DNA of 64,000 nucleotides, taken from NCBI RefSeq assembly GCF_021134715.1, contig NC_060028.1, positions 1,200,501 through 1,264,500 on the forward strand. The letters run 5' to 3'. Below are positions 23,258 through 60,741 of this stretch, in pieces. Position 1 is the first letter of the stretch. Each line of letters starts with the position of its first letter. Under the pieces are notes generated by a model. It saw nothing but the letters and a program-made list of their open reading frames with translations. It did not search any database and was not told where the DNA came from. Made by a program: the position numbers and the translations under genes. This stretch comes from Daphnia pulex (Eukaryota > Arthropoda > Branchiopoda > Diplostraca > Daphniidae).

Positions 23258-26200
23258 TTACATGTTTTCAAACTGATCGACACGCCGTTTGGTGTTGCCT
23301 TTGCGGATCTCCCGTAGCGTCTTGTACTTGTCGCGACCCTGCTTGACATTCTCTTTATGCAACCTATCCATGGCCGTCTCTTTGGTCTCGTCCTTGGTGC
23401 CGGCCAAATCCTTCTTCAACATCTGCCAAATCAAAATCAAATTAGTTAATTTAAAATCATTTTCAAAAGACATGAAGCAAACAAACCTTCAATTGATTCT
23501 GGAGACGTTCGTTCTTCTCGGCCAAAGTGAGGCGGTCTTCAACTGGATCGCGGATCGAGTTGATGTCGCTCTCCGATATCAAATCATTGCCCGCGCTGAT
23601 GTCACCGTTGGGTGTATCTTCATCCTCATCCTCCCCTTCGTCCTGTAAATAAAATGATAACGAAATAAAAAAAATAAGTTTATAAAACAAATAAATGGGC
23701 AATCTTATCTCGATAGGGGAAAGCCATGACAAGCAAAAGAAAATTTGTAATCAAATTTTTTGTCCTTACGTGATCGCCTTCGTTGACGTGTTGATGCTGT
23801 GGGGTAGTCGTGGCGGCAATAAGGGCCGCTGCAGCCTCTTCTTGCCTCCTTCGAGCATCTTCCACCTCTTCCTGGAGACGACGAGTCTCGTCGTCCTTGC
23901 GTTGAACCTCCTCGGCGATGCGCTGGACCTCGACCTGTTTGGCGCGGATCTCTTCCTCCAGCTTAATTTTCTCGGCCATCTCCATCTCCTTGGCCTCCTC
24001 CAGCCGCTTCATCATGTTGTGCAGCTCCTTCTGCGACACTTCAAGCTCTTCCTTGGCCTTTTGCAATTGACGGAGTTGCTCCTCGAGGCGACGGATCGTC
24101 TCCTGGGCTTCCAGCAGCTCGCGCTGCCGGCGCTCCATCTCTTCCTGCATCGACTTGAGCCGGTCGGCGTACTCTTGCTGCTTGCGCTCAGCCATTTCAC
24201 GAGCCTGGATTTCTCGCTGCAACTTCTCGCGCTCCTTCATCTTCGATCGGCGCTCCTCCTGGGCCTGGGCCTTCATCTGCTGCACTTCAATCGTGTCCGG
24301 CTTGCGTCGGCGCATGTAGAGCTCGTGGTTGCCCATGCACAGGGCCAAGATTCGCTTGTTGATGCGCAAGCGAGGCGCGAAAAAGACGAAATCCGGAGCT
24401 TTCTTGTCGATAGGTTTGATCACAAATTTACGATCGTTGAAAGAAATGTTGCGGATCTCTGACCAAGGGAACCCAATCTTCGGAGTCAATCTACAATAGC
24501 AAAAGGAATTCCATTAATCATTTCATTCTCGACACGGAATTTATAGATTTACTTGTCATCTTTTTCGTAGATGTTGAGTCCGAGAGCGTCAACGCCGAGC
24601 CAGAGCTGAGTGCCCTTCTTGTTCTTGATCTCGAAATAATTGACACCGTACATTTCCAGATCTTGAGCCACTTTCAGATATTCCATCATGGCATCCTCCC
24701 TGTACAATCATTTCCCCCCCAAAAAAAGAAGAAAAAATTTAACGTCATTTCAAGTTTTTTTCGGTAAAAAAAGAAAAAAAGTCGAGAGTTAACGGTCTGC
24801 GACCGAGCGAATCGGTCCATGAGATCAGCTCGACTGACCACACGTATGCGGTTTCTGTGTGTCTCGTTCTCTTGTCGGGTTTCCTACCTGAGCATTCCTC
24901 CGTGTTCCGCATGCCAGGTGGAGATGCGCTCCTCCCACTGCTCCCGCGTCAGATTGTGCTGATCCATGACTCTGAAATGGAATAACAAAAAAAGATATAG
25001 AAATGAGAACACACAAAGAAAGGAAACAAACAAGGAGAGAGGGGGGAAAAATAAATAAATAAATTGGATGACATTTGAATGCGTCGGTTTCGTTCGGGTT
25101 GCAATTACTACAGTACAATACCGTTGCGGAAGAAGGCGGTCGTTGGCCAGGTAACCGGAAGAGTGTAGTTCCTTATCGTGATCGCCGTATTTGGCCTGGA
25201 CGGCATACGAGGCGAGTAGGACCGACGTCTCGGGCGGGCAATAAATGTCGTCCGTCAAGATGGCATTCTTGACCTGCAGGTAAAAGAGCCGCACCGTAAT
25301 GTCTTGAATCAATTCCTCAGCCACATCTTCCGGGTAGAACTTGGCCCTGAATTTGAACTGCAGCGGACTCTCCTTCTTGACATCTTGATTCAGCACCTGA
25401 GGGTGGGCAGCAGCAGCACCAGTAGTAGTAATGGAAAGGAGGCAGGGGAAGATACGTCAAGATAGTAAAAGTAGTTAGTATCAAACATTTCTCACACACA
25501 CACACACGGCACACACAAGAGCGGCAACAAAACATCCTGCGACCTATTTAATTCCATTTCACGTCCTTTTTTTACTTTCCCAACAGTGTCGACATCAAGC
25601 GGATCTAAAGGCTTGTAAAAATGGATAAGAGAAGACGATAGAGCCTACAAGAGCTGCACTACATATTTCGCTTATCTATCTAGGGTCACTATAGTATGCT
25701 ACACGAGAGACTAATACAGCAGCAGCGTATTGCCTTTTTGATACGATTAACTGTACCTGATCTTGGCAGTAACCTCTGCCCAAAATAAACCTGAATATAT
25801 CCTTGACATAATCGTTGGGCTTGAAACAATTCAATCAAAACGGGGAATCGGGTGGGAGAAAAAAAAAGAGAATATTCCGTTTGAATTATGTAAACTTTGA
25901 AATAGTCCCTCAATTATAAATGCAAAAGTATTCCAATGAGAGACAAAAAAAGGAACCAAGGACCGATAATGACAATGTACCTTCTTGTTGAGCTTCAGCC
26001 ACGTAGAATAACTCTTGCTGTCGGTATACTGGAGTCCAAAGAACCAGATTTCGCGGAGACCGATTGTCTTGACAACTTGGTCAAACAGCTGTTTGCCCGT
26101 TGTCGTCGGCTGGATGGCAAATTCCAGCTCGGCGTCCATCGTCGTCACCCGAACATTGACCTACATTCATTTAAAGACAAAAAAAAGAAAAAGAAAGAAA

Positions 26201-27421
26201 AAGAAGATCTGTGAGTTGGCATTAACGACAAAGATGCTTCAACCATTCATTCGTGTCTCTTGAACGTGATCGGCGAACCAATTGGTTCGGATGCCCTTAT
26301 TTTTCTTCCAACCCATTGTACGAAAAACACTAGGGCTCTTAATCTCTTTTCCTCTTTCACAATCTGACAACCATCAAAGAAAAAGAAAGAAAGCCAGAAC
26401 AGTCATTCAGAGTCAAGTCTCGGCTGTCTGACTTGTGTTTCTTATCGGCGGCGCCAGTCCGTTATGGAATGGCATGGCAAACCCACCCAGACACAAACAC
26501 ACACACACACACACAGGAAAGGAAAGAAAAAACGCAATAGACATTCTTCTTCTTTCATTCAACGATTTTATATATATACCTTCTTCTTGTCGCTCATGGT
26601 GAATTTGACAAGAGATCCCACACGCCGACACCGAAAAAATATATCTAGACGCCCTCACTGCAAACAACCGTACGATGCAGCAAACGAAATCACACACACA
26701 GACACACTCACGCCGGTAGACACTAACAGGGAAAATTGCTATAGTCAATAGCAGCACAGACGCGTATCGGTCGGTGTGAAAGAACCAGAAATAAAAAAGG
26801 AAGACGGGACCCCGACAGGTGCCACACCAATATCTAATGACTGCAGTTAGTAGACTGGCGAGCCGGTGTATAGTCCCCGGTCCGTCCGTGAGTGGGTGCC
26901 CTACCCCTTGGTACGGGAAAACCGTTCGTAGACCGCGGTTTCCCCAATTGAACAAGTCATCTCTCGTCTCCGGTGTTGGTGGTGACGCGCTGGAAAGAAA
27001 TTTCCGCCCTGCGTAATCGCTTCTCTACCCTCCCCACACACACAATTTTTATCAGAAAAATCCACAACGAAAGGAATGTGCATATGCCCGATTGAATCAT
27101 CAGGGAGAGAGAAAATGAGCAAACAAGAAGAGTATAGTGTACACATTTTTTGGAGACACGCAATCGTGCTCCCGCATTTTGATTTTAAGAGAGAGAGAAA
27201 ATGATACAGGAAGAGACGACCGTGGGTTTGGACCACGCAAGACATTTCCCATAAAATATAGGCAACAATTGCAACCCCCCACCCACCCACTCTTTTTTAT
27301 TTCTTGGCTGAGGAGTCACGAGGTAACTCAAGAAAAAAGAGGCTTACAACGTCACATGGCCAGTTGTGCTAAAATTGGCAGCATCTTACGTCACTGTACA
27401 CAAACTCACCGATTTCGGCAT
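23258..27421 (-). CDS. Moe: Moesin (ERM family), intact copy
   Basis: Links cortical F-actin to the plasma membrane. Exons: first exon either 27410-27421 (MPKS) or 26580-26597 (MSDKKK), then 25981-26160, 25122-25396, 24888-24971, 24553-24699, 23770-24490, 23487-23642 and 23258-23422. These give 579 or 581 aa. A FERM domain ([18 protein letters not shown] to [14 protein letters not shown]) is followed by a long helical coiled coil (about residues 295-470) and an acidic linker. The C-ERMAD ends with [20 protein letters not shown] and ENM. The regulatory Thr in [10 protein letters not shown] is present. A 63-nt in-frame candidate exon lies at 25757-25819. A spliced 5' UTR exon begins near 27559 upstream of the MPKS start. 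An inverted second copy lies at 53.1-57.6 kb. Confidence 0.95.
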
Positions 27422-27806
27422 GTTGGATGATCTTGTTTGCTCTTGGGCTGTTTCAAGCTTTTTCTCTCCTCTGACTCTTGTTGGAAGAGTTGAAAGCCGG
27501 GCTTTTACTTCTTCTTCTTCTGCAGACTCACGCTCGCGCGAACAATACGCACGGAGAACCTGGAAAGAAAGAAAACAACAGGAAGAAATTAATGTCAGAC
27601 AGACAGACTGGGGTTGTTGCTGGTGGTGTAGAAGAGATTCAATAGCATATGGTCAACAAAATCTAAAGTACACAGATGGTCAGCATGTGGGCACATAGCT
27701 AGAGTGATGGGATTCTATATGTATATGTGAGTTGTCGAAAGGCCAGAGTGACTTCCCAACACATCCTGTCCATTTGGCAGGGTGCCGTCACAGTTTAGCG
27801 AATGCA
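23262..27806. repeat. Moe: Segmental duplication, moesin unit 1
   Basis: This block matches 53112-57572 in inverted orientation, introns included, with scattered substitutions and small indels. One edge falls inside the last codons of moesin, the other about 385 bp beyond the MPKS start. Confidence 0.9.
25757..25819 (-). other. Moe: Candidate 63-nt cassette exon of moesin
   Basis: Flanked by an acceptor (TTTCAAG) and donor (GTACAG). It is open for 21 codons in phase 0 ([12 protein letters not shown] to CQDQ) between the exons that end WLKLNKK and begin VLNQDVKKE. Insertion would enlarge the FERM F1/F2 junction. The fly protein, as I recall it, has no such segment. Confidence 0.5.
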
Positions 27807-43739: not shown

Positions 43740-45096
43740 ATTCCAGGAGAATTGTTTCAGACAAAAATCTTACACGCAAATAGTTCGACAGGAAGCTCAA
43801 TGGATGAAGAGAAAAAACTACTGTTAAACTGATACCTTAAATCGGAGGTTGGATCACATACGAAAATCAGGAGTCGACATCTGCAAATAGATGAGAATCT
43901 AAAATTTTATGATTGTTCATAAGATAACTAGCAAATAATTGAAATACTGAATATGCAAACCCCTCAGAAACAGAGCAACAATCCCATCAATTGGCTTTCG
44001 GCAGATTAGTCTGAATTGAGTTTTGCAGTCAGCCCGTAAAAGGGCAAACCACAACCCGCAAATTATACTCAAAAAGCAAGCTACAGAAGCAGTTCCAATC
44101 GAAATGGAGGTCTTCGCCTAATCCAAATGGACATCATGGGACTAACTACACTCCAATCGATATTCTTTCTATTCCCCCGCGCCTTTGCGAAAAGACTGCC
44201 CGGCTAGAGCATCACTCTCCGACAATGAGAAAAGCCTCGTCTCAGACCTTCCCGAGGGTTCCAGTGAGCAATGCAAGTACTCCGTGAGTGACCCCCAAAT
44301 GCAGGATTGCCGTTAGCCAAGACGGGGAGAGCCCAACTCATCACAGGGGATACACATATGCTAATTTCAATTCACATCAACTAACAAATGACAATTATCA
44401 ATCAATTACCTGCCAGAAGAACACTCAGCATAAACCATGTGGCTGCAATACCAAGAAAGCATCCTGAAATGGAATCATGAAGCAAAGTTAGAAAATTTCA
44501 GACAAATATAAAGAATACCCTAATCTTTAAAAATCATACTAAAGTAAACTATCCTCAAATATATCAGTACAGGTCTGTGAATTGTAATCATACCAGCAAT
44601 ATGAATAAAACAAAATAACACAATCATACTTACATTCACTTCACACTCTTCTACCTTGCCCACTACAGCCTACGAATCAGACCATATATGATGTAGCCAG
44701 TGTGCCAGCCATCGAACATTCATGAAAATACCTACAAGAAAACACAAAGCACAGATGAATTTCATGTTAATACTCAAAAATGAGACACAACTTGCCACAT
44801 ACGGCATTTAAGCAGTATAGGCAGTAGCACCAGTCTAGGATATTATTCAATCGCCGAAACATCAGCTGCAGAACACAGCTGAAACACATATATCAAATCC
44901 AACTTTTACTAAGTATAATAACACTCAAAAACCCAAATTTCAATAATAAAACAGGATATTAAACTCACCTTCGAAAATCGACATGCTGATAAGTCTGATC
45001 AGTGATCAAGAATCATAACCAAAGTTTTGGCAGCCACATAACGACACAGCGATCAGCCAACGGATGTGGTGTTTAAGAGTTTAATCGGCTTTTATC
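43740..45096 (-). other. RNase P RNA host gene, copy A (spliced)
   Basis: Predicted Pol II transcript. A GATAAAAG box is at 45089-45096. Exon 1 ends at 44969 with donor GTGAGT; exons 44634-44731 and 44410-44463 follow; exon 4 starts at 43880. Splice sites are those of copies B and C. Spliced exons 1-2 could encode 25 aa (MSIFEGIFMNVRWLAHWLHH to SDS), which copies B and C do not keep, so coding is doubtful. The intron 43881-44409 carries the RNase P RNA. Confidence 0.6.
43991..44320 (-). ncRNA. RPR: RNase P RNA (nuclear), copy A
   Basis: Catalytic RNA of the tRNA 5'-processing ribonucleoprotein. The 5' half carries CTCGGGAAGGTCTGAGACGA, which matches CR-I of animal RNase P RNA. The 3' end carries CAATTCAGACTAAT, matching CR-V. 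The two pair as P4 (GGTCTGAG with TTCAGACT). The ends pair as P1 (TTGGCT with AGCCAA, then CGG with CCG). Length of about 330 nt fits the family. It lies wholly in an intron, as known for insects and crustaceans. I compared it with the human RNA from memory; a covariance-model search was not possible. Confidence 0.85.
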
Positions 45097-45221
45097 GACT
45101 ATGGGTAGTACTGGGTAGTAAGGGGAACGGAAGCCGCGGGCTTATTCATCAAGTTGCTGTCTAGTTGCCAAATCGAATTAAACTGAAGCGATAAAATGGC
45201 AAATAAATTTATAAAATATAA

Positions 45222-45228
45222 ACACAAC
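45222..45228. repeat. Target-site duplication, left (ACACAAC)
   Basis: The 7-bp word recurs at 46958-46964 on the other side of the THAP element. A paralogous site without the element (about 51527-51533, inverted) has it once. Confidence 0.8.
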
Positions 45229-45474
45229 CAGAGCAATAGATACCTGGTCGGTTCTCGGCCGTGTTGGCTTCCCTATCCCGGTTTCAGGGTAAACGTGGTC
45301 CGATTTGGAAAAATTGATGAGCGCCTCTAGTGAGTGTGTCAGGTACTACGTGAAGCCAGCCAATCAGGAAGGGTCTATGAAAAACTCATTGACCAATCAC
45401 AGCTTACTTTTCTACAAGAAGTGAACAAAATAAAAAGGTAGAAGTATCCAACTGTCAAACCTCTAGGTCTTTTC

Positions 45475-45585
45475 TAAGTGTCCCAACATTCTTACATTTT
45501 ATTGTTTGGTTGTGTAAATTGTTTATTCTTTGTAAGTGTCCAAACATTCTTACATTTTATTGTTTGGTTGTGTAAATTGTTTATT
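45475..45585. repeat. Two tandem copies of a ~58-bp unit
   Basis: The unit holding ACATTCTTACATTTTATTG occurs twice with one small difference, inside the transposon and downstream of the THAP gene. Confidence 0.8.
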
Positions 45586-45604
45586 GTTCCGTTGACATAA
45601 TACA

Positions 45605-46696
45605 CTACTTCTTGTTTTGAAAATGTACACTTTTCACATTATAATTTTCATTTGGTAGTCGATCCATCGAAATGCAAAAAATCGTTTGTTTAATTTGATC
45701 AAAATACCATGTCCAATTCTTTGGTACCATTGATGAAGTTACTAGTGACTGAAATGTCACAAAATTAGACTTGAAATTAGTAGAGCTTGCTTCCATAGAA
45801 GGTGATGTAACTGTCGAATCATCAATGACAACAGCAACATTTTCGTTCATTACATCAGGAAGTGGATCAAAAATTGCTTCTTCAGCAGCCTGGTGAGTGT
45901 CCATTGATTCTTGAATAGTAGAGGTAGCTTCCATAGAAGGTGATGCAACTGTCGTATCTTCCATGACAACAGCAAGATTTTCCTTGATTGAATCTGGAAG
46001 TGGATCAAAAATTGCTTCTTCAGCAGCCTGGGGAATGTTGATTGATTCTTTAATAATTTCCATGGAGGGTGCTATCAGATAAAATTTAAAGCAATTGCTC
46101 TTATAAATAAAATGTAACGAGAACTATTATCAATACCTGTACTGTCAAATTTTTTTCTCTTAGACGTAGTAGGTATTTTGTCTACTTTTGGTCGTTTCCT
46201 TACTGATGCATTGCTAGCATTTGTTTCCACTACAATACATATTTAAGAATTGCGTTATTTGATATTAAACAAAATAAACATATTTAAAAATACCATTAAG
46301 GTTATTTCTCCATTTGAAACCATCAACATTTTGCATTGCTTGTCGACTAGGTGTATCTAAAATGAAAATGGTTCAGTTTCTGTGCTTTACAGATTATACA
46401 GGAAATGTAATATCAATACCATTTATCAGAAAATGTTTGGGAATTGCTCCAGCATTACGATTCCTACGTTTGAAAGGATGGAACACGTTCAAAATTTAAA
46501 TCCCTGATTTGAAGTCACTTTCGTCAAAATGACGGGAGCAAATACGTGAGGTGCTCGTCAAATAACTACATGGAATTAGTTCTCGCCATTTAGATAATGA
46601 AGTTTTAGGAATTGCAAACAGGGTAACCTCGTTTTCTTTTTGATTTCCTTTGAAATATGTTGATTTACAACCAGGAACAGCACACCTGCCAACCAT
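45605..46696 (-). pseudogene. THAP-domain protein of P-like element, interrupted
   Basis: Four exons (46420-46696, 46294-46356, 46137-46229, 45605-46071) join in phase to about 299 codons. The THAP zinc finger is at the start: CAVPGC, then SKWRELIP, then CSRHFDESDF (C2CH ligands present). An in-frame TAA at 46496-46498 falls before the last part of the domain (RNAGAIPKHFL). The rest has a Lys-rich segment, then a duplicated unit of about 45 aa (AAEEAIFDPLPD and SPSMEA each twice) and an end with NWTWYFDQIKQ. No catalytic domain is seen. It looks like an internally deleted, decaying transposase-derived gene. Confidence 0.75.
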
Positions 46697-46957
46697 TTTT
46701 ACAGAAATTATGGTTAGGCTTCATTCACGTAATACACGATAATGGCCGCCGTATTCACATATTACACAAAAATGGCCGCCGAAAGTATTATTTGAAAGTC
46801 AACGTCTTATCACTAGATGGCGCTGTTTCATTTTTACCACTTCACAACTTCTGACAAGCTCCGCCCTAAAATGTCTGAAAATCGGGGATACGTTTACCCT
46901 AAAACCGGGATAGGGAAGCCAACACGGCCGAGAACCGACCAGGTATCTATTGCTCTG

Positions 46958-46964
46958 ACACAAC
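46958..46964. repeat. Target-site duplication, right (ACACAAC)
   Basis: Second copy of the 7-bp direct repeat flanking the THAP element. Confidence 0.8.
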
Positions 46965-47511
46965 ACAATACAATACACAATCAACCAATTTTCGTAAATG
47001 AGACATTCAAATATTAATTTTACAAATAATTACACAACTACATTACATATAGTATTCAGCCAATTCAGGCAATATTGGCAACATTTAATAAAATAATGTC
47101 ACGGCAGAGCCATTAATGGCTCTGGTCACGATCTCACGGACCCGCAAAACGGCAGTAGTGGTTCTATTATTACAAACATATCGAAAATAACAAAATACCG
47201 TTTTGATTTATCGTAAGCTCCCTTACAAGGTGGATATGGATGGATGGATTGGATATGGCTCAATTAATTGCCAAGCAAAAAGTAACCACAGCAACGGAGG
47301 TTTACAGCTCAATTGACATTGGCCGCATTATACGAAATTTGTTTAAATATTTATTTTCTGCGTTTTCTTTATCAATCGCATTCTCGAGCAATGCTGAATA
47401 GCTAGAAAAGGTTCAGACTTTCATGTCACCGGAAATCGCATTATTGTTCGAATCAATGGGAGGGAGTTCATTCTTAATGATATAAACGGGTCGATTAAGA
47501 TTATTGATAGT
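46965..47511. other. Flank of RNase P repeat A and tRNA-block 5' part
   Basis: 46965-47095 is the inverse of about 51400-51530. 47270-47460 resembles 49340-49505 and, inverted, 60780-60930. No protein gene. Confidence 0.6.
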
Positions 47512-47610
47512 TCGTAGATAGCTCAGAGGCCTAGAGCGGTGGGATAAGTTGGGCTGTGATATAAACGGCCCTGCTCCCACAGGACGCAGGTTCGAATCCT
47601 GCTCTACGGA
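47512..47610 (+). tRNA. Intron-containing tRNA-like gene, copy 1
   Basis: 99 nt. Acceptor stem TCGTAGA/TCTACGG (first pair U-G). D-arm GCTC/GAGC with boxA-like TAGCTCAGAGGCCTAGAG. Anticodon stem GTGGG/CCCAC. Five-base variable region. T-arm GCAGG-TTCGAAT-CCTGC as box B. The anticodon loop holds an insert of about 25 nt with its own hairpin (GGGC/GCCC), placed like a tRNA intron. By position the anticodon would be AAG, but a Leu tRNA should have a long variable arm, so isotype is open. Confidence 0.7.
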
Positions 47611-47937
47611 TTTTGAATTTGAACTTATTCTAGTTTATTTTTTTACCTTTTTTATGCAAATTCCATTTCCTTATTCATTATAATTAATTAAATGTGCATT
47701 TTAATTGTCATCGAATCGACTTAAAAAATTTTAAAACAAATAAGTCCAGATGCTGGGAGAACTGCACATTTGCATATAATCTTTAACTGATGTCTGCCCC
47801 ACAAATTATTGATAATCAAGTGAACGAACGAAACAACTAACGCGAAACATTTATGTTATTTTTAAATCGAATTTTATTGAATATGCCGTATCACAGCAGT
47901 GAAGAGAAATGAGTTGAAAAAGATTTCGATGTTCAAA

Positions 47938-48657
47938 TTAGATTTTGATGGTACGCCGAACGAATAGAAGATCTTCGATGGCTGATTCGCGAATCCTATT
48001 TGCACGATCCTTCTTATTCTTCCGTCGATTTCGGTTTTTTCTCCAGTTTTTCGATGATCCAACGAATTGATCGACTTCCATTGGGGTCACTTTCGTCATC
48101 TCAACCTTTCCGCAATGAAGAGAAGAAGAAGAACATCGTCTTTTGATGTGTAGCATTTTCCTTGTGGGATGATTTGGCGTAATCGGGTTTATATCCTGCA
48201 TTTCGACATCGAACTGTCCGCAGTATGCTGGGCGAATAGTAACCAAAGCGGGCCAGTAGGGCAATTTCATCGTACTGGGTGCTGCTGGGAATCCAGTTCT
48301 GATGGGCGGTTGGAACATCATTGGCTTTGGCTTGAAGATATCGACGAAATAAGCATCAGGATCGGATAGACGGGCCCGTTTGTTCGGACGACTAAGCGGA
48401 TCAAGTTTGGCTAATAGGATTGGACAGCCATCGTCGCGCTTCCGCTTAACTGCTCTAACGTCCAGCTCCATCTGTTGATTTTCTTCGGGTAAAGGAATAA
48501 TAACTGCTTCATTCGGAAAGATGTTTTGCTTGAGAAGAGATTCCAGTATCGGCTGATGGTAACCGGTTGTCGCCTCCCGGATGGGAATTTGCTGGTTAAA
48601 GTATTCGCCGAAATTGTTTGAAATCCGTTCGGAAACGTTAAAAAACGAGAAATTCAT
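47938..48657 (-). CDS. Hypothetical basic protein with nuclear signals, 239 aa
   Basis: Single-exon frame that starts MNFSFFNVSERISNNFGEY about 105 bp after a TATA box (minus TATAAA at 48761-48766). Basic clusters VKRKRDD and NKRARL look like nuclear localisation signals. The C-terminal part is very basic (NWRKNRNRRKNKKDRANR) and ends LLFVRRTIKI. Between them is a Pro-rich stretch (KPKPMMFQPP). No signal peptide, membrane segment or known domain is visible. Length, promoter and composition make it likely a real gene. It lies between two tRNA-like genes. Function unknown. Confidence 0.6.
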   Translation of the reverse strand: MNFSFFNVSERISNNFGEYFNQQIPIREATTGYHQPILESLLKQNIFPNEAVIIPLPEENQQMELDVRAVKRKRDDGCPILLAKLDPLSRPNKRARLSDPDAYFVDIFKPKPMMFQPPIRTGFPAAPSTMKLPYWPALVTIRPAYCGQFDVEMQDINPITPNHPTRKMLHIKRRCSSSSLHCGKVEMTKVTPMEVDQFVGSSKNWRKNRNRRKNKKDRANRIRESAIEDLLFVRRTIKI

Positions 48658-48760
48658 TTTTCAAATGTATAATGAGAGCTTTTGAGAGAATAATCAACTC
48701 GTTTGGACTTGATTGATATTGAACGAGTTTGATGGTGCGGGTATACGTGCGGACGGATGC

Positions 48761-48766
48761 TTTATA
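48761..48766 (-). promoter_or_regulatory. TATA box of 239-aa gene
   Basis: Minus strand TATAAA, about 105 bp before the ATG. Confidence 0.5.
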
Positions 48767-48769
48767 TCA

Positions 48770-49583
48770 GCAGTTGCCGCAGAAACAGCGTACGCAACCG
48801 TATCCTCACTTGATCTTTTGATTGAGAAATATATTTCTCATTGGGAAAAACAATTGAGATGAATATATTAATGAATTTCAAATTATTTGAAATGTTGTTC
48901 AAAAATGTTTGATTGATTTTGAAATGGAGTCTATTATTTAATTGAACTATGAAATCAGAAATATTCCGTAATCGTTCGATATTACGTGATCGCTGCGCGC
49001 CGCTGTGTCATAGTGGACATAATCGGAAGTAATCAATTCCGGTATTTTTAGTTTGGCATATAATTTTGATTTAACTTGCGATCGATTTGAACTTAATTTG
49101 AACTTAACGATATAAAACTTCAGAGACCTTTGTTTGTCAACGGGTAGGCTATTTTTTTTTTAAAAAAAGGTAGTGTCAGATATATTTTTTAATGCAAATG
49201 CGATCAGCCAAACTTAATTTTGCTAACTGCATTTGAACTTCAATATATTAGTGTCTATCGATCACGATTTATCTTGCGTCTCCTTAATCTTTTTCATCTA
49301 TTTGTATTTGGCGGTATTTGGTTGCGAGGTACAGACTTAAGAATATATAAAAGTAACCATAGCAACAGAGGTTTATAGCTCAATTGACTGGGACATTGTA
49401 CGAAATTTGTTTGATATTTATTTTCTGCGTTTTCTTATCAATCGCAAATGAAAAGGTTCCTTACAACATACCACCGGAAATCGCATTATTGTTCGAATCA
49501 ATAAGAGGAGTCTCGCGAGGAGTTTTTTAATCGGCTATACTATTAATTTTAAACCGATTAAGTCAGATGCAAAATAACATAGT
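48770..49583. other. Spacer; part of inverted duplicated tRNA block
   Basis: 49080-49505 resembles the inverse of 60780-61140, including a shared ATATAAAACTTCAGA-type stretch next to the end of the synthetase gene. No gene of its own. Confidence 0.55.
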
Positions 49584-49682
49584 TCGTAGATAGCTCAGAG
49601 GCCTAGAGCGGTGGGATAAGTTGGGCTGTGATATAAACGGCCCTGCTCCCACAGGGCGCAGGTTCGAATCCTGCTCTACGGA
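49584..49682 (+). tRNA. Intron-containing tRNA-like gene, copy 2
   Basis: Same 99-nt structure as copy 1; differs by G for A before the T-stem. Acceptor stem TCGTAGA/TCTACGG. Insert hairpin identical to copy 1. Confidence 0.7.
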
Positions 49683-50275
49683 CTTTAGATTTGAATTTAT
49701 TCAAATCTTTTTTTTTTCTTTTTTCATCCAAATTCCATTTCCTCATTCATTCGTATTTTTAGTTCGGCATTATTTTGATTTAACTTGCGATTGAATCGAT
49801 TTGGCATAGAATCAATAAACCATTATTTTTAGAACACGAAAGTTATATAGTCCACTATTTTCCACATGGACAAGTTGTTGAAAGGAATTGGAGAGGAGTG
49901 AAAGCGTTTTAGCAAGGCGCATGCCCAACTGAGTGTAGTTGTTAATAGATATTCGTGTAAGATGTTTCAGATTCTATACAGACTTGACGCATTTGCGCAA
50001 CACAAATCATTAACAATTTAAGTGAAGCATCGAGACAGTCCACACATCTCGTCTCACCTGGTCCATAATTTAAGAATTCTTATGAGCAGCTCAACTCCAG
50101 GTATAAAATTTAACGTTACCAAAACTTTTGTAGTTTTCATTCATATCTGTATGACACTATTCATCCCAAAAATATTATTCTCACATTTATCTTTATAGGA
50201 ATTAATTACTGGCTCATGACTGTGCCTCAATTCATCCATCCGAAAACCATATTCGCTGAATTCAATTAAATAAAG
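49683..50275. other. Upstream region of second receptor
   Basis: No gene seen. A T-run directly follows the tRNA-like gene (near 49710), a possible Pol III terminator. Confidence 0.5.
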
Positions 50276-51328
50276 ATGAACAACACTATTCAAGATAATA
50301 GAGACTTTTTCAATCCCAGTTTCAACATCAACACATTTCTAGTGACCACGAAACTCTTTTGTTGTTCACTGGGAATTCCCCTCAACCTACGAATCGTCAA
50401 AACCATTATTCGTCTCCTCCGTCTCGGCTACAAATCCCGGCACATTTTCCTATTAAGCGTCTTCGTTTCCTATTTGCTCACGTTCGTTCATCCGCTCGTC
50501 GAACTGACCTACTGCGCAATTCTGCCGCTGGAATGTTGGGAATTTGTTTGCGTCGTGTTGGTCGTCATTAGCGGCTTGCCTCACGCTCTTTTACTGCTCA
50601 ACATGTGTCTAGCTCTGACTGACAGATTTCTAGCCATCAAATTCCCTTTGATGCACCAGAACAAGATGACGTCACGTTTTGCCAAATCCACCATTATCGT
50701 CTGCAACATTTCCCTTGTATTCCATCTCAAATTTGTCTACATCATGGGACTTGCTCCCCTCCGCTGCGAGATTTGGCTAGTTCACATAACGGTGGTCGAG
50801 CTGACTATTCTCATATTGTTCGTATCTTACATAATCTTGAGTGTTGTCGTTTACCGACAAACGGAGAGTCGATTGAATGAATCTCAGACGAATGGCGACG
50901 GAACCAGCGAAACTTCCAGGACACCTGGAGGAGCATTTGATCAGGAAATGGTTGTTATTGCTGGTGGGATTGTAACTGAATCGAGGCAACTTACCACGTA
51001 CGGAAGTGAATTCCTGGACGCTCGTCCCTTACGTAATCGTTCCGCTAATATTGTTAGACCAGCAGAGCCTGTTCCAGTCGATAGAGATTTAGAAGCCTCT
51101 CGTTCACTAGTCATGGGGGTGATCCCACTTGTCCTCACAGTTTGCCCACTTTTGATTTTGTTGTTGGCATTTTTGTTTTGCCAACTGATCGGTCAATTTG
51201 ACTGCAGTATTTTCACTTGGTTGGTGACCTATTTCAAAGAACTGAGTTTAATTCAGGCTGTTTATAATCCGTTGATATTTCTGTGGAAGAATGAAGAGCT
51301 AAGAAAGGCACTGTTGGCAATTAATTGA
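50276..51328 (+). CDS. Rhodopsin-like 7TM receptor paralogue, orphan
   Basis: Single-exon, 350 aa, clear paralogue of the receptor at 39229. Shared marks: MNNT start, GIPLN in TM1, LRCEIWLVH with the extracellular Cys, EASRSLVMGV before TM6, GQFDCSIF, and HAVYNP replaced by QAVYNPLIFL in TM7. DRY is changed to DRF (LTDRFLAIK). TM1 carries charged residues (LNLRIVKTII) where the paralogue has LLIAVTII, which may weaken that segment. The third loop is shorter. Open frame is intact, so it may be functional. Ligand unknown. Confidence 0.85.
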   Translation: MNNTIQDNRDFFNPSFNINTFLVTTKLFCCSLGIPLNLRIVKTIIRLLRLGYKSRHIFLLSVFVSYLLTFVHPLVELTYCAILPLECWEFVCVVLVVISGLPHALLLLNMCLALTDRFLAIKFPLMHQNKMTSRFAKSTIIVCNISLVFHLKFVYIMGLAPLRCEIWLVHITVVELTILILFVSYIILSVVVYRQTESRLNESQTNGDGTSETSRTPGGAFDQEMVVIAGGIVTESRQLTTYGSEFLDARPLRNRSANIVRPAEPVPVDRDLEASRSLVMGVIPLVLTVCPLLILLLAFLFCQLIGQFDCSIFTWLVTYFKELSLIQAVYNPLIFLWKNEELRKALLAIN

Positions 51329-51650
51329 GCCGTATGGGAACTTTCGATAAATCAAAAACGGTATTTTGTGATTTGAAAATATTTTGTCGTCTGTAAATAA
51401 TAATAGAAGCACTTCTGCGGTTGTTGCCAATATTGCCTGAATACTATATTTTGTTTCGTAATTATTTGTAAAATTAATATTTGAATGTCTCATTTACGAA
51501 AAATGGTTGATTGTGTATTGTATTGTGTTGTGTTTATATTTTATAAATTTATTTGCCATTTTATCGCTTCGGTTTAATTCAATTTGGCAACTAAACAGCA
51601 ACACTTGACGAATTAGCCCGCGGCTCCCGTTCCCCTTAATACCCATAGTG

Positions 51651-53030
51651 CATAAAAGCCGGTTACATCTCTTTCTGACTTTCCTTCTCACTCGTCTTGT
51701 CGTGTCGAATTGACAAACTGAGATGATTTTTGAAGAAGAGATTTATCAGCATGTCGATTTTTCAAGGTAAGTTTTATTTCCTTGTTTTATTATCGAAATG
51801 TCTGTGTTTTGGTGTTTTTTTATTTAGTTGGATATGATTTGCGTGTTCAACTGTGTTTTCTGTTTTGCAATGGTTTTCTGCAGCTGGGATGTTTCTGTGA
51901 TTGAATAATAGCCTAGACTGACTTACATTTGTGATTTCATACTATAACTACTGTTTACATGTGTTGTGTGATATATTGTTTTTCCTTTGGAAGTTCTAAT
52001 TTGAAGTTCAACTCTGCTTTTCTTGTAGGTTTTTTCATGGGTATAGTCGATGGCTGATGTGCTGGCCACATGGTCTGATTCATTGATTATGGTCGACAAG
52101 TTTGAGGATTGTGAAATGAATAATGTAAGTGTGATTGTCATTGTTTATTTATGTTTCTGATGTGATTATTACCACAGACCTGTACTGATAGTTTCGAGGA
52201 TAGTTTATTTTACTATGATTTTTAAAGATTAGGGTATTCTTTATATTTGTCTGAAATTTTCTAACTTTGCTTCATTATTCCATTTCAGGATGCTTTCTTG
52301 ATATTGCAGCCACATGGTGTATGGTAAGTTCTTCTAGCAGGTATTCATTGGTTATCATCATTCATAAGCTGATGTGCATTCAAATATCATTTGTGGGTCC
52401 CCTGTGATGAGTTGGGCTCTCCCCGTCTTGGCTTACGGTAATCCTGCATTTGGGGGTCACACACGGAGTACTTGCATTGCTCACTCAGACCCTCGGGAAG
52501 GTCTGAGACGAGGCTTTTCTTCTCATTGTCGGAGAGTGATGCTCTAGCCGGGCAGCCTTTTCGCAAAGGCGCGGGGGAATAGAAAGAATATCGATTGGAG
52601 TGTCGTTAGTCCCATGATGTCCATTTGGATTAGGCGAAGACCTCCATTTCGATTGGAACTGCTTCTGTAGCTTGCTTTTTGAGTATAATTTGCGGGTTGT
52701 GGTTTGCCCTTTTACGGGCTGACTGCAAAACTCAATTCAGACTAATCTGCCGAAAGCCAATTGACAGTTGTTGCTCTGTTTCTGAGGGGTTGCTATATTC
52801 AGTTTTTCATTCATTAGCTATCTTATGAACAATTATACAATTTTAAATTCTCATCTATTTGCAGATGTCGACCCCTGATCTTCGTATGTGATCCAACCTC
52901 CGATTTAAGGTATCAGTTCAACAGCAGTATTTCTCTTCATCCATTGAGCTTCCTGTCCACCTATTTGCGTCTAAGATTTTTGTCCGAAACAATTCTCCTG
53001 GAATTATTTTGGTAAGTCTAGTGGGACTTT
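51651..53030 (+). other. RNase P RNA host gene, copy B (spliced)
   Basis: CATAAAAG box at 51651-51658. Exon 1 ends at 51766 (donor GTAAGT). Exons 52029-52124 and 52289 to about 52323 follow, and exon 4 starts at 52865. Exon 2-3 would allow a short frame MADVLATWSDSLIMVDKFEDC and onward, partly shared with copy C (MVDKVEEC) but not copy A. Coding is therefore uncertain. Confidence 0.6.
52428..52760 (+). ncRNA. RPR: RNase P RNA (nuclear), copy B
   Basis: About 333 nt with the same CR-I (GGGAAGGTCTGAGACGAGG) and CR-V (AATTCAGACTAATCTGCC) blocks and P4 pairing as copies A and C. P1 reads TTGGCTTACGG against CCGAAAGCCAA, with one T in the internal loop where the others have A. An extra TTC sits in the loop after CR-I. 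It lies between host exons 3 and 4. Confidence 0.85.
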
Positions 53031-53493
53031 TATCATATATGGATTTCCACCGTAAGATTGTTGTGGGTTGTGGTTTTCCTTTTTAATCTTATCGCCTGAC
53101 TATAATTTCCTTGCATTCGCTAAACTGTGATGGTACCTTGCCAAATGGACAGGATGTGTTGGGAAGTCACTCTGGCCTTTCGATAACTCACATATACATA
53201 TAGAATCCCATCACTCTAGCTATGTGCCCACATGCTGACCATCTGTGTACTTTAGATTTTGTTGACCATATGTTATTGAATCTCTTCTACACCACCAGTA
53301 ACAACCCCAGTCTGTCTGTCTGACATTAATTTCTTCCTGTTGTTTTCTTTCTTTCCAGGTTCTCCGTGCGTATTGTTCGCGCGAGCGTGAGTCTGCAGAA
53401 GAAGAAGTAAAAGCCCGGCTTTCAACTCTTCCAACAAGAGTCAGAGGAGAGAAAAAAGCTTGAAACAGCCAAGAGCAAACAAGATCATCCAAC

Positions 53494-55376
53494 ATGCCGA
53501 AATCGGTGAGTTTGTGTACAGTGACGTAAGATGCTGCCAATTTTAGCACAACTGGCCATGTGACGTTGTAAGCCTCTTTTTTCTTGAGTTACCTCGTGAC
53601 TCTTCAGCCAAGAAATAAAAACGAGTGGGTGGGTGGGGGTTGCAATTGTTGCCTATATTTTATGGGAAATGTCTTGCGTGGTTTAAACCCACGGTCGTCT
53701 CTTCCTGTATCATTCAATCGGGGATCGGGCATACATTTCATTCTGGATTTTCTGATAAAATTGTGTGTGTGGGGTGATGCGATTACGCAGGGCAGAAATT
53801 TCTTTCCAGCGCGTCACCACCAACACCGGAGACGAGAGATGACTTGTTCAATTGGGGAAACCGCGGTCTACGAACGGTTTTCCCGTACCAAGGGGTAGGG
53901 CACCCACTCACGGACGGACCGGGGACTATACACCGGCTCGCCAGTCTACTAACTGCAGTCATTAGATATTGGTGTGGCACCTGTCGGGGTCCCGTCTTCT
54001 TTCCCCTTTTTTTATTTCTGGTTCTTTCACACCGACCGATACGCGTCTGTGCTGCTATTGACTATAGCAATTTTCCCTGTTAGTGTCTACCGGAGTGAGT
54101 GTGTCTGTGTGTGTGATTTCGTTTGCTGCATCGTACGGTTGTTTGCAGAGAGGGCGTCTAGATATATTTTTTCGGTGTCGGCGTGTGGGATCTCTTGTCA
54201 AATTCACCATGAGCGACAAGAAGAAGGTATATATATATAAAATCGTTGAATGAAAGAAGAAGAATGTCTATTGGGTTTTCTCTTTTCTCTTTCCTTTCCT
54301 GTGTGTGTGTGTTTGTGTCTGGGTGGGTTTACCATGCCATTCCATAACGGACTGGCGCCGCCGATAAGAAACACAAGTCAGACAGCCGAGACTTGACTCT
54401 GAATGACTGTTTTGGCTTTCTTTCTTTTTCTTTGATGGTTGTCAGATTGTGAAAGAGGAAAAGAGATTAAGAGCCCTAGTGTTTTTCGTACAATGGGTTG
54501 GAAGAGAAATAAGGGCATCCGAACCAATTGGTTCGCAGATCACGTTCAAGAGACACGAATGAATGGTTGAAGCATCTTTGTCGTTAATGCCAACTCACAG
54601 ATCTTCTTTTTCTTTCTTTTTGTTGTCTTTAAATGAATGTAGGTCAATGTTCGGGTGACGACGATGGACGCCGAGCTGGAATTTGCCATCCAGCCGACGA
54701 CAACGGGCAAACAGCTGTTTGACCAAGTTGTCAAGACAATCGGTCTCCGCGAAATCTGGTTCTTTGGACTCCAGTATACCGACAGCAAGAGTTATTCTAC
54801 ATGGCTGAAGCTCAACAAGAAGGTACATTGTCATTATCGGTCCTTGGTTCCTTTTTTTTCTCTCATTGGAATACTTTTGCATTTATAATTGAGGGACTAT
54901 TTCAAAGTTTAAATAATTCAAACGGAATATTCTCTTTTTTTTCTCCCACCCGATACTTCGTTTTGATTGAATTGTTTCAAGCCCAACGATTATGTCAAGG
55001 ATATATTCAGGTTTATTTTGGGCAGAGGTTACTGCCAAGATCAGGTACAGTTAATCGTATCAAAAAGGCAATACGCTGCTGCTGTATTAGTCTCTCGTGT
55101 AGCATACGATAGTGACCCTAGATAGATAAGCGAAATATGTAGTGCAGCTCTTGTAGGCTCACCGTCTTCTCTTATCCATTTTTACAAGCCTTTAGATCCG
55201 CTTGATGTCGACACTGTTGGGAAAGTAAAAAAAGGACGTGAAATGAAAATAAATAGGTCGCAGGATGTTTTGTTGCCGCAATGCTCTTGTGTGTGTGCCG
55301 TGTGTGTGTGTGTGTGAAATGTTTGATACTAACTACTTTTACTATCTTGACGTATCTTCCCCTGCCCCCTTTCCAT

Positions 55377-55419
<43 letters not shown>

Positions 55420-57244
55420 CACCCTCAGGTGCTGAATCAAGATGTCAAGAAGGAGAGTCCGCTGCAGTTCAAATTCAGGGCCAAGTTCTACCCGGAAGAT
55501 GTGGCTGAGGAATTGATTCAAGACATTACGGTGCGGCTCTTTTACCTGCAGGTCAAGAATGCCATCTTGACGGACGACATTTATTGCCCGCCCGAGACGT
55601 CGGTCCTACTCGCCTCGTATGCCGTCCAGGCCAAATACGGCGATCACGATAAGGAACTACACTCTTCCGGTTACCTGGCCAACGACCGCCTTCTTCCGCA
55701 ACGGTACTGTACTGTAGTAATTGCAACCCGAACGAAACCGACGCATTCAAATGTCATCCAATTTCTTTATTTATTTTTCTCCCCCATCCTCTCTCTCCTT
55801 GTTTGTTTCCTTTCTTTGTGTGTTCTCATTTCTATATCTTTTTTTGTTATTCCATTTCAGAGTCATGGATCAGCACAATCTGACGCGGGAGCAGTGGGAG
55901 GAGCGCATCTCCACCTGGCATGCGGAACACGGAGGAATGCTCAGGTAGGAAACCCGACAAGAGAACGAGTGAAAGACACACAGAAAACCGCATACGTGTG
56001 GTCAGTCGAGCTGATCTCATGGACCGATTCGCTCGGTCGCAGACCGTTAACTCTCTCGACTTTTTTTCTTTTTTTACCGAAAAAACTTGAAATGACGTTA
56101 AATTTTTTCTTCTTTTTTTTTGGGAAATGATTGTACAGGGAGGATGCCATGATGGAATATCTGAAAGTGGCTCAAGATCTGGAAATGTACGGTGTCAATT
56201 ATTTCGAGATCAAGAACAAGAAGGGCACTCAGCTCTGGCTCGGCGTTGACGCTCTCGGACTCAACATCTACGAAAAAGATGACAAGTAATAGAAATCTAT
56301 AAATTTCGTGTCGAGAATGAAATGATTAATGGAATTCCTTTTGCTATCGTAGATTGACTCCGAAGATTGGGTTCCCATGGTCAGAAATCCGCAACATTTC
56401 TTTCAACGATCGTAAATTTGTGATCAAACCAATCGACAAGAAAGCTCCGGATTTCGTCTTTTTCGCGCCTCGCTTGCGCATCAACAAGCGAATCATGGCC
56501 CTGTGCATGGGTAACCACGAGCTATACATGCGCCGACGCAAGCCGGACACGATTGAAGTGCAGCAGATGATGGCCCAGGCCCAGGAGGAGCGCCGATCGA
56601 AGATGAAGGAGCGCGAGAAGTTGCAGCGAGAGATTCAGGCTCGTGAAATTGCGGAGCGCAAGCAGCAAGAATACGATGACCGGCTCAAGTCGATGCAGGA
56701 AGAGATGGAGCGCCGGCAGCGCGAGCTGCTGGAAGCCCAGGAGACGATCCGTCGCCTCGAGGAGCTACTCCGTCAATTGCTAAAGGCCAAGGAAGAGCTT
56801 GAAGTGTCGCAGAAGGAGCTGCACAACATGATGAAGCGGCTGGAGGAGGCCAAGGAGATGGAAATGGCCGAGAAAATCAAGCTGGAGGAAGAGATCCGCG
56901 CCAAACAGGTCGAGGTCCAGCGCATCGCCGAGGAGGTTCAACGCAAGGACGACGAGACTCGTCGTCTCCAGGAAGAAGTGGAAGAGGCTCGAAGGAGGCA
57001 AGAAGAGGCTGCAGCGGCCCTTATTGCCGCCACGACTACCCCACAGCATCAACACGTCAACGAAGGCGATCACGTAAGGACCAAAAATTTGATTAAACAT
57101 TTTTTGCTTGTCATGGCTTTCCCCTATCGAGATAAGATTGCACAATTATTTGTTTTAGAAACTTATTTTTTTTTATTTCGTTATCATTTTATTTACAAGA
57201 CGAAGGGGAGGATGAGGATGAAGATACACCCAACGGTGACATAA
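53494..57244 (+). pseudogene. Moesin copy 2, frameshifted by splice-site change
   Basis: All moesin exons are present: 53494-53505 or 54209-54226, then 54643-54822, candidate cassette 54982-55044, 55429-55703, 55861-55944, 56139-56285 and 56353-57073. Then the acceptor of the next exon, CAG/GAC in copy 1, reads CAAGAC (G to A at 57198). Using the new AG shifts the frame and stops at 57244. The product would keep FERM and coiled coil but lose the C-ERMAD and the regulatory Thr. Several coiled-coil replacements (for example [15 protein letters not shown]) also differ. It could be a pseudogene or make a truncated, constitutively open ERM protein. Confidence 0.8.
55389..55418 (+). repeat. (CTG)n microsatellite, expanded in moesin copy 2
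   Basis: About ten CTG units lie directly before the acceptor of the 55429 exon. Copy 1 has about three to four at the same place. Confidence 0.9.
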
Positions 57245-57584
57245 GCGCGGGCAATGATTTGATATCGGAGAGCGACATCAACTCGATCCGCGATCCAGTT
57301 GAAGACCGCCTCACTTTGGCCGAGAAGAACGAACGTCTCCAGAATCAATTGAAGGTTCGTTTGCTTCATGTCTTTTGAAAAATGGTTTGAAATTAACTAA
57401 TTTGATTTTGATTGGCAGATGTTGAAGAAGGATTTGGCCGGCACCAAGGACGAGACCAAAGAGACGGCCATGGATAGGTTGCATAAAGAGAACGTCAAGC
57501 AGGGTCGCGACAAGTACAAGACGCTACGGGAGATCCGCAAAGGCAACACCAGACGACGTGTCGATCAGTTTGATTTGATTTAAT
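57245..57584 (+). pseudogene. Remnant last exons of moesin copy 2
   Basis: The acidic-linker exon continues to 57353 and the last exon begins at 57420. The last exon still encodes [13 protein letters not shown], but its end reads [10 protein letters not shown] then stop. RRVDQFENM of copy 1 is replaced because the duplication edge cuts the final codons and the RNase P repeat C takes over. Confidence 0.8.
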
Positions 57585-58917
57585 TTTATCGCTTAGTTTA
57601 ATTCGATTTGGCAACTAAACAGCAGCACTTTAGTCATGACGAATTAGCCCGTGGCTCCCGTTCCCTTTACTACCCATAGTCCATAAAAGCCGGTTACATC
57701 TTGTCAGTTTCATTCGTCGTGTCGTGTGGAATAGACAAACTGAGTTTTTGACTTGTAGCTTGTAGTTATGATTTTTGAAGAAGAGATTTATGAGCATGTC
57801 GTTCAAGGTATATCTTCATTTTTCTGTTGTGATATTGAAATTTGCGTGTTTTGGTGTTCATTTAGTTGGATATGATTTGCGTGTTTCAACTGTGTTTTGC
57901 TTTTGCAGTGGTGTTCTGCAGCCATGGTGTTATTGACTAACAGCCTAGACTGATTTACAATTGGCATTTCATACTACATTGTACGTGCGGTTTGTGATAC
58001 ATTCTGTTTCCTTTAGAAGTTCTAATTTGAAGTTCATCTTTGCTTTTCTTGTAGGTTTTATCATGGTTAGTCGATGGCTGATGTGCTGGCCACATGGTCT
58101 GATTCATTGATTATGGTCGACAAGGTTGAGGAGTGTGAAATGAATTGTGTAAGTGTGATTGTCATTGTGTTATTCATGTTTCTGATGTGATTATTACCAC
58201 AGACCTGTACTGATAGTTTTGAGGATAGTCGATTTTACTATGATTTTTAAAGATAATGGTATTCTTTGTATTTGTCTGAAATTTTCTAACTTTGCTTCAT
58301 TATTCCATTTCAGGATGCTTTCTTGGTATTGCAGCCACATGGTTTATGCTGAGTGTTCTTCTGGCAGGTAATTGATTGATAATTGTCATTTGTTAGTTGA
58401 TGTGCATTCAAATATCATTTGTGGGTCTCCTGTGATGATTTGGGCTCTCCCCGTCTTGGCTAACGGTAATCCTGCATTTGGGGGTCACTCACGGAGTACT
58501 TGCATTGCTCACTCAGACCCTCGGGAAGGTCTGAGACGAGGCTTTTCTCATTGTCGGAGAGTGATGCTCTAGCCGGGCAGCCTTTTCGCAAAGGCGCAGG
58601 GGAATAGAAAGAATATCGATTGGAGTGTCGTTAGTCCCATGATGTCCATTAGGACTAGGCGAAGACCTCCATTTCGATTGGAACTGCTTCTGTAGCTTGC
58701 TATTTTGAGTATAATTTGCGGGTTGTGGTTTGCCCTTTTACGGGCTGACTGCAAAACTCAATTCAGACTAATCTGCCGAAAGCCAATTGATGGGATTGTT
58801 GCTCTGTTTCTGAGGGGCTTGCATATTCAGTTTTTCATTTATTAGCTATCTTATGAACAATTATACAATTCTAAATTCTCATCTATTTGCAGATGTCGAC
58901 CCCTGATCTTCGTTTGT
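57575..58917 (+). repeat. RNase P RNA host repeat, copy C
   Basis: Direct relative of 51540-52885 and inverse relative of copy A. Similarity is lost just after the start of exon 4. Confidence 0.85.
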
Positions 58918-60111: not shown

Positions 60112-60210
60112 TTCGTAGAGCAGGATTCGAACCTGCGTCCTGTGGGAGCAGGGCCGTTAATATAACAGCCCAACTTATCCCACCGCTCTAGGCCTCTGAG
60201 CTATCTACGA
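60112..60210 (-). tRNA. Intron-containing tRNA-like gene, copy 3
   Basis: 99 nt on the minus strand. Acceptor stem TCGTAGA/TCTACGA, with a U-A first pair where other copies have U-G. Insert hairpin is GGGCTGTTA/TAACGGCCC, longer paired than in copies 1, 2 and 4. D-arm, anticodon stem and T-arm are unchanged. Confidence 0.7.
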
Positions 60211-60642: not shown

Positions 60643-60741
60643 TCCATAGAGCAGGATTCGAACCTGCGTCCTGTGGGAGCAGGGCCGTTTATATCACAGC
60701 CCAACTTATCCCACCGCTCTAGGCCTCTGAGCTATCTATGA
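60643..60741 (-). tRNA. Intron-containing tRNA-like gene, copy 4
   Basis: 99 nt on the minus strand. Acceptor stem TCATAGA/TCTATGG: both strands of the third pair changed (G-C to A-U) against the other copies, which preserves pairing. Insert as in copies 1 and 2. Confidence 0.7.

Follow-up and report, generated by a model that had tools for sequence, protein, structure and literature searches.

The 64,000-nucleotide stretch of the Daphnia pulex genome analysed here (contig NC_060028.1, positions 1,200,501 to 1,264,500 of the forward strand; hereafter the window) carries three genes for nuclear RNase P RNA (RPR), each lying in a predicted intron of a duplicated host and each enclosed by the consensus of a box C/D kink-turn. 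We name these copies C12a, C12b, and C12c, and their hosts a, b, and c (Table 1); the copies found outside the window are C2a and C2b on contig C2 and C6 on contig C6. An earlier note on this DNA had taken the three segments for RPR, and scoring with the nuclear covariance model of Rfam (RF00009; model length 301, gathering score 28 bits) bears this out, with full-length matches of 122.3–129.5 bits (E <= 1.2e-34) that align model positions 1-301 of 301 at 52431-52757 (+), 43993-44318 (-), and 58458-58784 (+). In these alignments the conserved blocks CR-I and CR-V, which form helix P4, are intact in all three copies. The termini pair as helix P1 in its longer form (TTGGCT...AGCCAA), which falls exactly on the ends that the note had assigned (Table 1).

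Across the genome (133 Mb in 13 contigs, with 15 of 5690 first-look candidates scored), RF00009 recovered six full copies, all of them above the cut-off and covering model positions 1-301 at 122.3–135.4 bits. Of these, C12 has three, C2 has two, scoring 135.4 and 126.1 bits, and C6 has a single copy, at 134.1 bits. A DNA search added a seventh, broken copy on C5 (102740-102930; 79% identity over ~190 nt), in which alignment found no recognisable box C or 3' half. The count of three is thus right for the window and incomplete for the genome, which holds three more full copies and a broken one. The earlier note had named as counter-evidence either an insignificant model match or a better RPR elsewhere with the window segments silent; the match is significant, and the copies with 135.4 bits (C2) and 134.1 bits (C6) do outscore those of the window. 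Antisense open frames of 86–90 codons run across several RPR copies (L009:4689-4949 (+), L007:4790-5056 (+), and window 44015-44284 (+)) and are probably spurious.

That RPR resides in introns in this species is largely known, because ten intronic copies in D. pulex were published in 2015 (PMC4287351; this and the other papers cited are drawn on for parts of their text). In Drosophila, mature RPR is made by splicing and by the action of Rat1/Xrn2 and the exosome, together with some RNase P proteins, and weak splicing has been suggested to favour RPR output (PMC6797745). Given these published intronic copies and the Drosophila maturation work, several copies duplicated together with a host are expected. 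By contrast, the covered text passages of both papers describe no box C/D element around intronic RPR, and the words "box C" occur there only in the reference lists. Within this literature scope, the enclosure of RPR by box C/D elements therefore appears to be previously undescribed, and it is a new form of intronic RPR.

GT and AG splice signals flank each window RPR, so that the intronic placement asserted earlier stands as a prediction from sequence, and each C12 host has a TATA-like word and four predicted exons. The donors of the RPR introns (at 52341, 58368, and 44409) are off-consensus (GTATTC or GTAATT), and five of the six other host donors read GTAAGT or GTGAGT. RPR and host were copied together, as had been claimed, since pairwise homology blocks extend over 1427–1645 aligned nt at 79–87% identity. 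No TATAWA was found within 60 nt upstream of RPR in any of the six full copies, all of which contain internal T4-T5 runs; in C6 there is also a T5 run ~14 nt past P1. As a control, all three MRP RNA loci above the cut-off have TATAAATA ~25 nt upstream and a T-run at the 3' end, and none of the three has a box C within 60 nt upstream. We consider transcription of RPR by RNA polymerase (Pol) III unlikely because of the missing TATA and the internal T-runs, and infer that the window copies are transcribed by Pol II.

Table 1. Features of the RPR loci in the window (window coordinates; introns and exons predicted from splice signals)
Feature	Positions	Strand	Details
RPR copy C12a	43991-44320	-	RF00009 122.5 bits
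RPR copy C12b (P1 to P1)	52428-52760	+	RF00009 129.5 bits; ends from P1 pairing
RPR copy C12c	58456-58786	+	RF00009 122.3 bits
C12a kink-turn, 5' half	44338-44349	-	stem CCCC 44349-44346; box C GTGATGA 44344-44338
C12a kink-turn, 3' half	43960-43967	-	box D CTGA 43967-43964; stem GGGG 43963-43960
C12b kink-turn, 5' half	52399-52410	+	stem CCCC 52399-52402, then t; box C GTGATGA 52404-52410
C12b linker, box C to P1	52411-52427	+	5' strands of PX (GGGC) and P1 extension
C12b linker, P1 to box D	52761-52781	+	3' strands of P1 extension and PX (GCTC)
C12b kink-turn, 3' half	52782-52789	+	box D CTGA 52782-52785; stem GGGG 52786-52789
C12c kink-turn, 5' half	58427-58438	+	stem CTCC 58427-58430 (one T-G pair); box C GTGATGA 58432-58438
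C12c kink-turn, 3' half	58810-58817	+	box D CTGA 58810-58813; stem GGGG
RPR intron of host a	43881-44409 (529 nt)	-	donor GTAATT; box D end to 3' splice site 83 nt
RPR intron of host b	52341-52864 (524 nt)	+	donor GTATTC; box D end to 3' splice site 79 nt
RPR intron of host c	58368-58892 (525 nt)	+	donor GTAATT; box D end to 3' splice site 79 nt
Host a predicted exon 2	44634-44731	-	exon 1 ends 44969; exon 3 44463-44410; exon 4 from 43880
Host b predicted exon 2	52029-52124	+	exon 1 ends 51766; exon 3 52289-52340; exon 4 from 52865
Host c predicted exon 2	58055-58148	+	exon 1 ends 57807; exon 3 58314-58367; exon 4 from 58893
TATA-like ATAAAAGCCG upstream of host b	51652-51661	+	identical word at 57683 (+) and 45095 (-); putative promoter
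U25-like C/D element, host a	44532-44595	-	guide and D' 44579-44564; chance-level snR56 match, E 3.7
U25-like C/D element, host b	52152-52221	+	guide and D' 52173-52188; boxes C and D imperfect; chance-level snoU25 match, E 4.7
U25-like C/D element, host c	58178-58255	+	guide and D' 58198-58213; chance-level snR56 match, E 1.4

Outside P1, all six full copies show the arrangement stem-N-RTGATGA ... CTGA-stem, with box C starting 24–25 nt upstream of P1 and box D starting 18–23 nt downstream of it. The outer stem has 4 bp in C12a, C12b, and C12c (with one T-G pair in C12c), 6 bp in C2a and C2b, and 2 bp in C6; it begins directly 3' of CTGA and, on the 5' side, 3 nt ahead of the G in the core of box C, leaving the 3-nt bulge, a spacing typical of kink-turns. 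The genes, P1 and P4, the introns, and the joint duplication described in the earlier note all hold up; this kink-turn, and the U25-like element described below, had been overlooked there. The flanks of each locus were resampled 50,000 times under a first-order model, and a draw was counted when both boxes and a stem fell within 60 nt of the RPR ends. For the five copies on C12 and C2, where a stem of 4 bp or longer was demanded, the frequency was 1e-4 to 4e-4; for C6, where 2 bp sufficed, it was 3e-4. These figures must not be multiplied, because the loci are paralogues. Both strands of the 64-kb window contain four RTGATGA/CTGA pairs at a spacing of 360–390 nt, three of which are the RPR loci. 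When viral contigs (two of eight scans, over two gap ranges) and bacterial and archaeal contigs were scanned for animal RPR, there were no matches.

The boxes are better kept than the sequence that separates them from the ribozyme. In a register set by hand, the ten core box positions (TGATGA and CTGA) are invariant in the six copies, as against 13 of 41 linker columns (Fisher p 9e-5, or 6e-4 with the variable box C purine included), and between C6 and C12b or C2 the boxes are unchanged at an RPR identity of 73–77% and a linker identity of 43–56%. Folding of the flanks with a shortened core predicts that P1 is continued by an extension and then by a 4-bp helix towards the kink-turn, which we call PX, with strands GGGC/GCTC in the C12 copies and C2a, GGAC/GTTC in C2b, and GAGT/ACTC in C6. 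PX pairs in 24 of 24 cells, against 11–17 of 24 in slid controls, and at two of its pairs both partners are changed, at one in C2b and at the other in C6; the P1 extension pairs in 33 of 35 cells, against at most 15 of 35 in slid controls (one slide covered 30 cells). These counts are only descriptive, because both helices were picked from predicted folds. In P1 itself, three pairs are changed on both sides in C6, where the outermost pair is lost, and in every copy other than C12b the linker arms pair better than shuffled arms (P 0.0015–0.015).

These helices bear on the stretch just upstream of box D, where a working C/D methylation guide would sit if the transcript were a bifunctional RNA in which RPR is fused to such a guide. 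An identical TTGCTCTGTTT does precede box D in C12a, C12b, C12c, and C2a, but the same stretch differs in C6 and C2b, and since the PX changes there are matched on the opposite strand, it behaves like a helix strand rather than like a guide. We regard a guide function as highly improbable.

Between C12b and the two C2 copies, both edges of homology fall no more than 1 nt from the outer stem. In BLAST comparisons of copies with 1.5 kb of flank on each side (coordinates in this paragraph and for the C6 blocks below refer to that flanked sequence), both C12b-C2a and C12b-C2b gave a single long block at 1468-1859 in C12b, and the outer stem is bounded by 1469-1859. The 5' edge also lies at 1470 in both C12b-C6 and C2a-C6. 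Beyond the stem, identity over 100 nt is 0.25–0.44 in five cross-group comparisons, close to the 0.33 (standard deviation 0.08) of 40 shuffled pairs, and the flanks of C2a and C2b are still 0.65–0.74 alike. A separate, weaker match between C12b and C2 (87 and 39 aligned nt) lies 165–270 nt upstream of RPR around the U25-like element, and the C12 and C2 hosts are therefore probably old paralogues. We read the unit that was kept as the putative C/D-closed one rather than RPR alone.

This boundary, the kept boxes, and the helices have to be set against an account in which the motif arose by chance in one ancestral copy and was inherited, the boxes being idle and RNase P proteins keeping Rat1/Xrn2 and the exosome away from P1 as proposed for Drosophila. 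All copies are indeed paralogues, the window has one more such box pair away from RPR, the C6 stem has just 2 bp, and the covered part of the Drosophila work describes a pathway without such boxes (PMC6797745). Idle boxes would nevertheless have had to stay unchanged in C6 relative to C12b and C2 while RPR and linkers diverged, the linking helices covary, and the C12-C2 homology stops at the stem, so that we find an inherited accident rather improbable.

The intron preceding that of RPR carries a further C/D-like element in each window host. The genome has exactly four occurrences of its guide, CACAGACCTGTACTGA: one in each window host and one in an intron of an EF-Tu-family gene (C12:7523658-7523673), which by reading is eEF2 and in which boxes C and D are intact. 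In the C12 hosts the boxes of this element are imperfect, and at the C2 loci it is further decayed, with the RPR boxes intact. We call the element U25-like, a presumptive label, from the guide word and from what is known of SNORD25, the Rfam matches (E 1.4–4.7) being at chance level by themselves.

The presence of a snoRNA-like neighbour also matters for a second alternative, namely that the motif is a plain kink-turn that binds an L7Ae-family RNase P protein (Rpp38-like) and adds one more structural part to the RNase P particle. Tandem G-A pairs and stems are enough to make a plain kink-turn, and all six copies keep the full RTGATGA/CTGA consensus; the U25-like element in the adjacent intron and the end of C12-C2 homology at the outer stem, which fits an intronic snoRNA, are likewise not what this alternative would lead one to expect. 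It draws on the precedent of archaeal L7Ae, which binds kink-turns in RNase P RNA (PMC4245976), and on the covarying helices that join the motif to P1, as expected for a part of the particle. Weighing the two sides, we judge this explanation unlikely.

In the window, the hosts themselves look more like snoRNA host genes than protein genes. Exon 2 measures 98, 96, and 94 nt in hosts a, b, and c, with gaps of 2, 3, and 7 nt between copies, and its identity (66, 67, and 92% for a-b, a-c, and b-c) is overall below that of intron 2 with the U25-like element (85, 85, and 95%) and of intron 3 with RPR (91, 94, and 94%); exon 3 is 87–100% and intron 1 58–75% alike between the window hosts. Introns that are better kept than exons are the pattern of snoRNA host genes, and this contrast slightly raises the odds of a C/D function. 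The longest spliced frames have 59, 56, and 45 aa. Short frames are also shared, of 37 aa between hosts b and c and in exons 3-4 between hosts a and c. We read the window hosts as putatively non-coding, and consider a protein-coding host unlikely in view of the 45–59 aa frames, the frame-breaking gaps in exon 2, and the lower conservation of exon 2 relative to the introns. Of the duplicated host gene in the earlier note, the duplication thus stands, and what was duplicated is no evident protein gene. At the C6 locus, RPR lies between two ubiquitin hydrolase exons (PF00443) that join in frame by reading, and several named relatives of this USP10-like host are USP10.

Taken together, we propose that the window RPRs are probably intronic, Pol II-transcribed RNase P RNA genes with the end-structure of an intronic box C/D snoRNA, and that they are protected and trimmed in the same manner. 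Splicing of the host transcript would free the RPR-bearing intron, which would then form a long rod consisting of P1, the P1 extension, PX, the box C/D kink-turn, and the outer stem. The kink-turn would recruit a C/D core led by 15.5K (SNU13) at the outer stem, exonucleases arriving from the 5' and 3' sides would be halted nearby, and RNase P proteins would assemble on RPR, possibly with a passage through the nucleolus. The mature RNA may accordingly measure ~390 nt, or the C/D core may protect a precursor, with trimming to P1 coming afterwards. On this proposal, RPR would survive without a Pol III promoter or terminator because the C/D core would stop the exonucleases. In mammalian intronic C/D snoRNAs, the spacing from box D to the 3' splice site is near the 79–83 nt of the C12 copies. 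Of these steps, splicing, trimming, and protection by RNase P proteins are published for Drosophila, and the C/D step is read from the anatomy of the loci.

Several observations weigh against this proposal. The six copies are paralogues of one genome and hence not independent, and the most divergent of them, C6, has an outer stem of only 2 bp, a P1 extension in a different register, and 3' homology edges that miss the stem: the C12b-C6 block ends at 1833, 26 nt short of the stem end and before box D, and the C2a-C6 block reaches 1862, 11 nt beyond the 3' stem, which slightly lowers the odds of a C/D function. From box D to the predicted 3' splice site the distance is 52 nt in C2a, 55 nt in C2b, and 124 nt in C6. 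When the register is set by MAFFT, 18 of 38 linker positions are invariant, which weakens the contrast with the boxes, and box D of C6 is placed out of register so that just one of four box D columns is invariant there. The linking helices were picked after the predicted folds had been seen; C12b has lost two of the six P1-extension pairs, and the pairing of its arms does not exceed that of shuffled arms (P 0.31). Nor does the fold of the whole C12b unit stand out from that of its shuffles (z -0.67, matched by 26 of 100), so we did not use whole-unit folding energy as structural evidence. The fourth RTGATGA/CTGA pair of the window (15136-15509 (+), 374 nt apart, with a 5-pair stem) is away from any RPR; it may be a chance occurrence or another C/D-ended RNA. 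Finally, maturation of Drosophila RPR depends on RNase P proteins, and the covered text mentions no C/D element (PMC6797745).

A bolder and more tentative version of the proposal is that Daphnia RPR belongs to a ribonucleoprotein (RNP) of two classes at once: a full ribozyme with the ends of a box C/D snoRNP, released as a ~390-nt snoRNA from introns, in the window from a gene resembling a snoRNA host. The gain of such ends may possibly have allowed the RPR of an ancestral pancrustacean to leave Pol III for introns. Should a box C/D module indeed protect the ends of RPR here, the switch of RPR in insects and crustaceans from a Pol III gene to an intron passenger would gain a concrete mechanism, namely the snoRNA pathway, as happened with telomerase RNAs; RPR ends placed at P1 may then be too short for Daphnia, and RNase P would share an assembly path with the C/D snoRNPs.

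With the intronic Pol II RPRs described in insects and crustaceans (PMC4287351, PMC6797745), the window copies share the sense strand of an intron, the lack of Pol III signals, and, in D. pulex, the presence of several copies. They differ in that the recipients described in the covered parts of those papers are protein-coding genes and no box C/D element is described there, whereas the window hosts look non-coding and box C/D elements enclose RPR. With intronic box C/D snoRNAs they have in common RTGATGA, CTGA, the outer stem, the intron position, and a U25-like element in the neighbouring intron, but between the boxes lies a ribozyme of ~330 nt, and the sequence ahead of box D, predicted to form base pairs, is not kept in the manner of a guide. 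Telomerase RNAs with snoRNA ends are, in the sources covered, likewise RNAs of a catalytic RNP that borrow snoRNA ends for their biogenesis, although for telomerase rather than RNase P. The Caenorhabditis telomerase RNA in an nmy-2 intron, as given in part of PMC12921731, is again the RNA of an RNP catalyst in an intron, of another kind and in another host.

Further features flank the RPR loci. One gene of the window has its nearest named protein match in Daphnia pulex, at 93% identity. Downstream of host b lies a moesin-like gene with FERM and ERM domains at 55351-57241; host b may be an upstream part of this gene or be spliced into it (its first coding exon ends near 53505). The window contains two copies of this ezrin/radixin/moesin type in opposite orientation, at 53360-57241 (+) and ~23683-27600 (-), the domains having been checked in the first, and the 5' exon region of the moesin-like gene is 98% identical over 493 nt to the second copy at 27 kb. 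ARAGORN with its bacterial code setting called no tRNA in the window, as against four by Rfam (48–54 bits). These four tRNA-like genes, nearly identical to one another, carry a long insertion in the anticodon arm and are situated between and beside the RPR copies, at 47512-47610 (+), 49584-49682 (+), 60112-60210 (-), and 60643-60741 (-).

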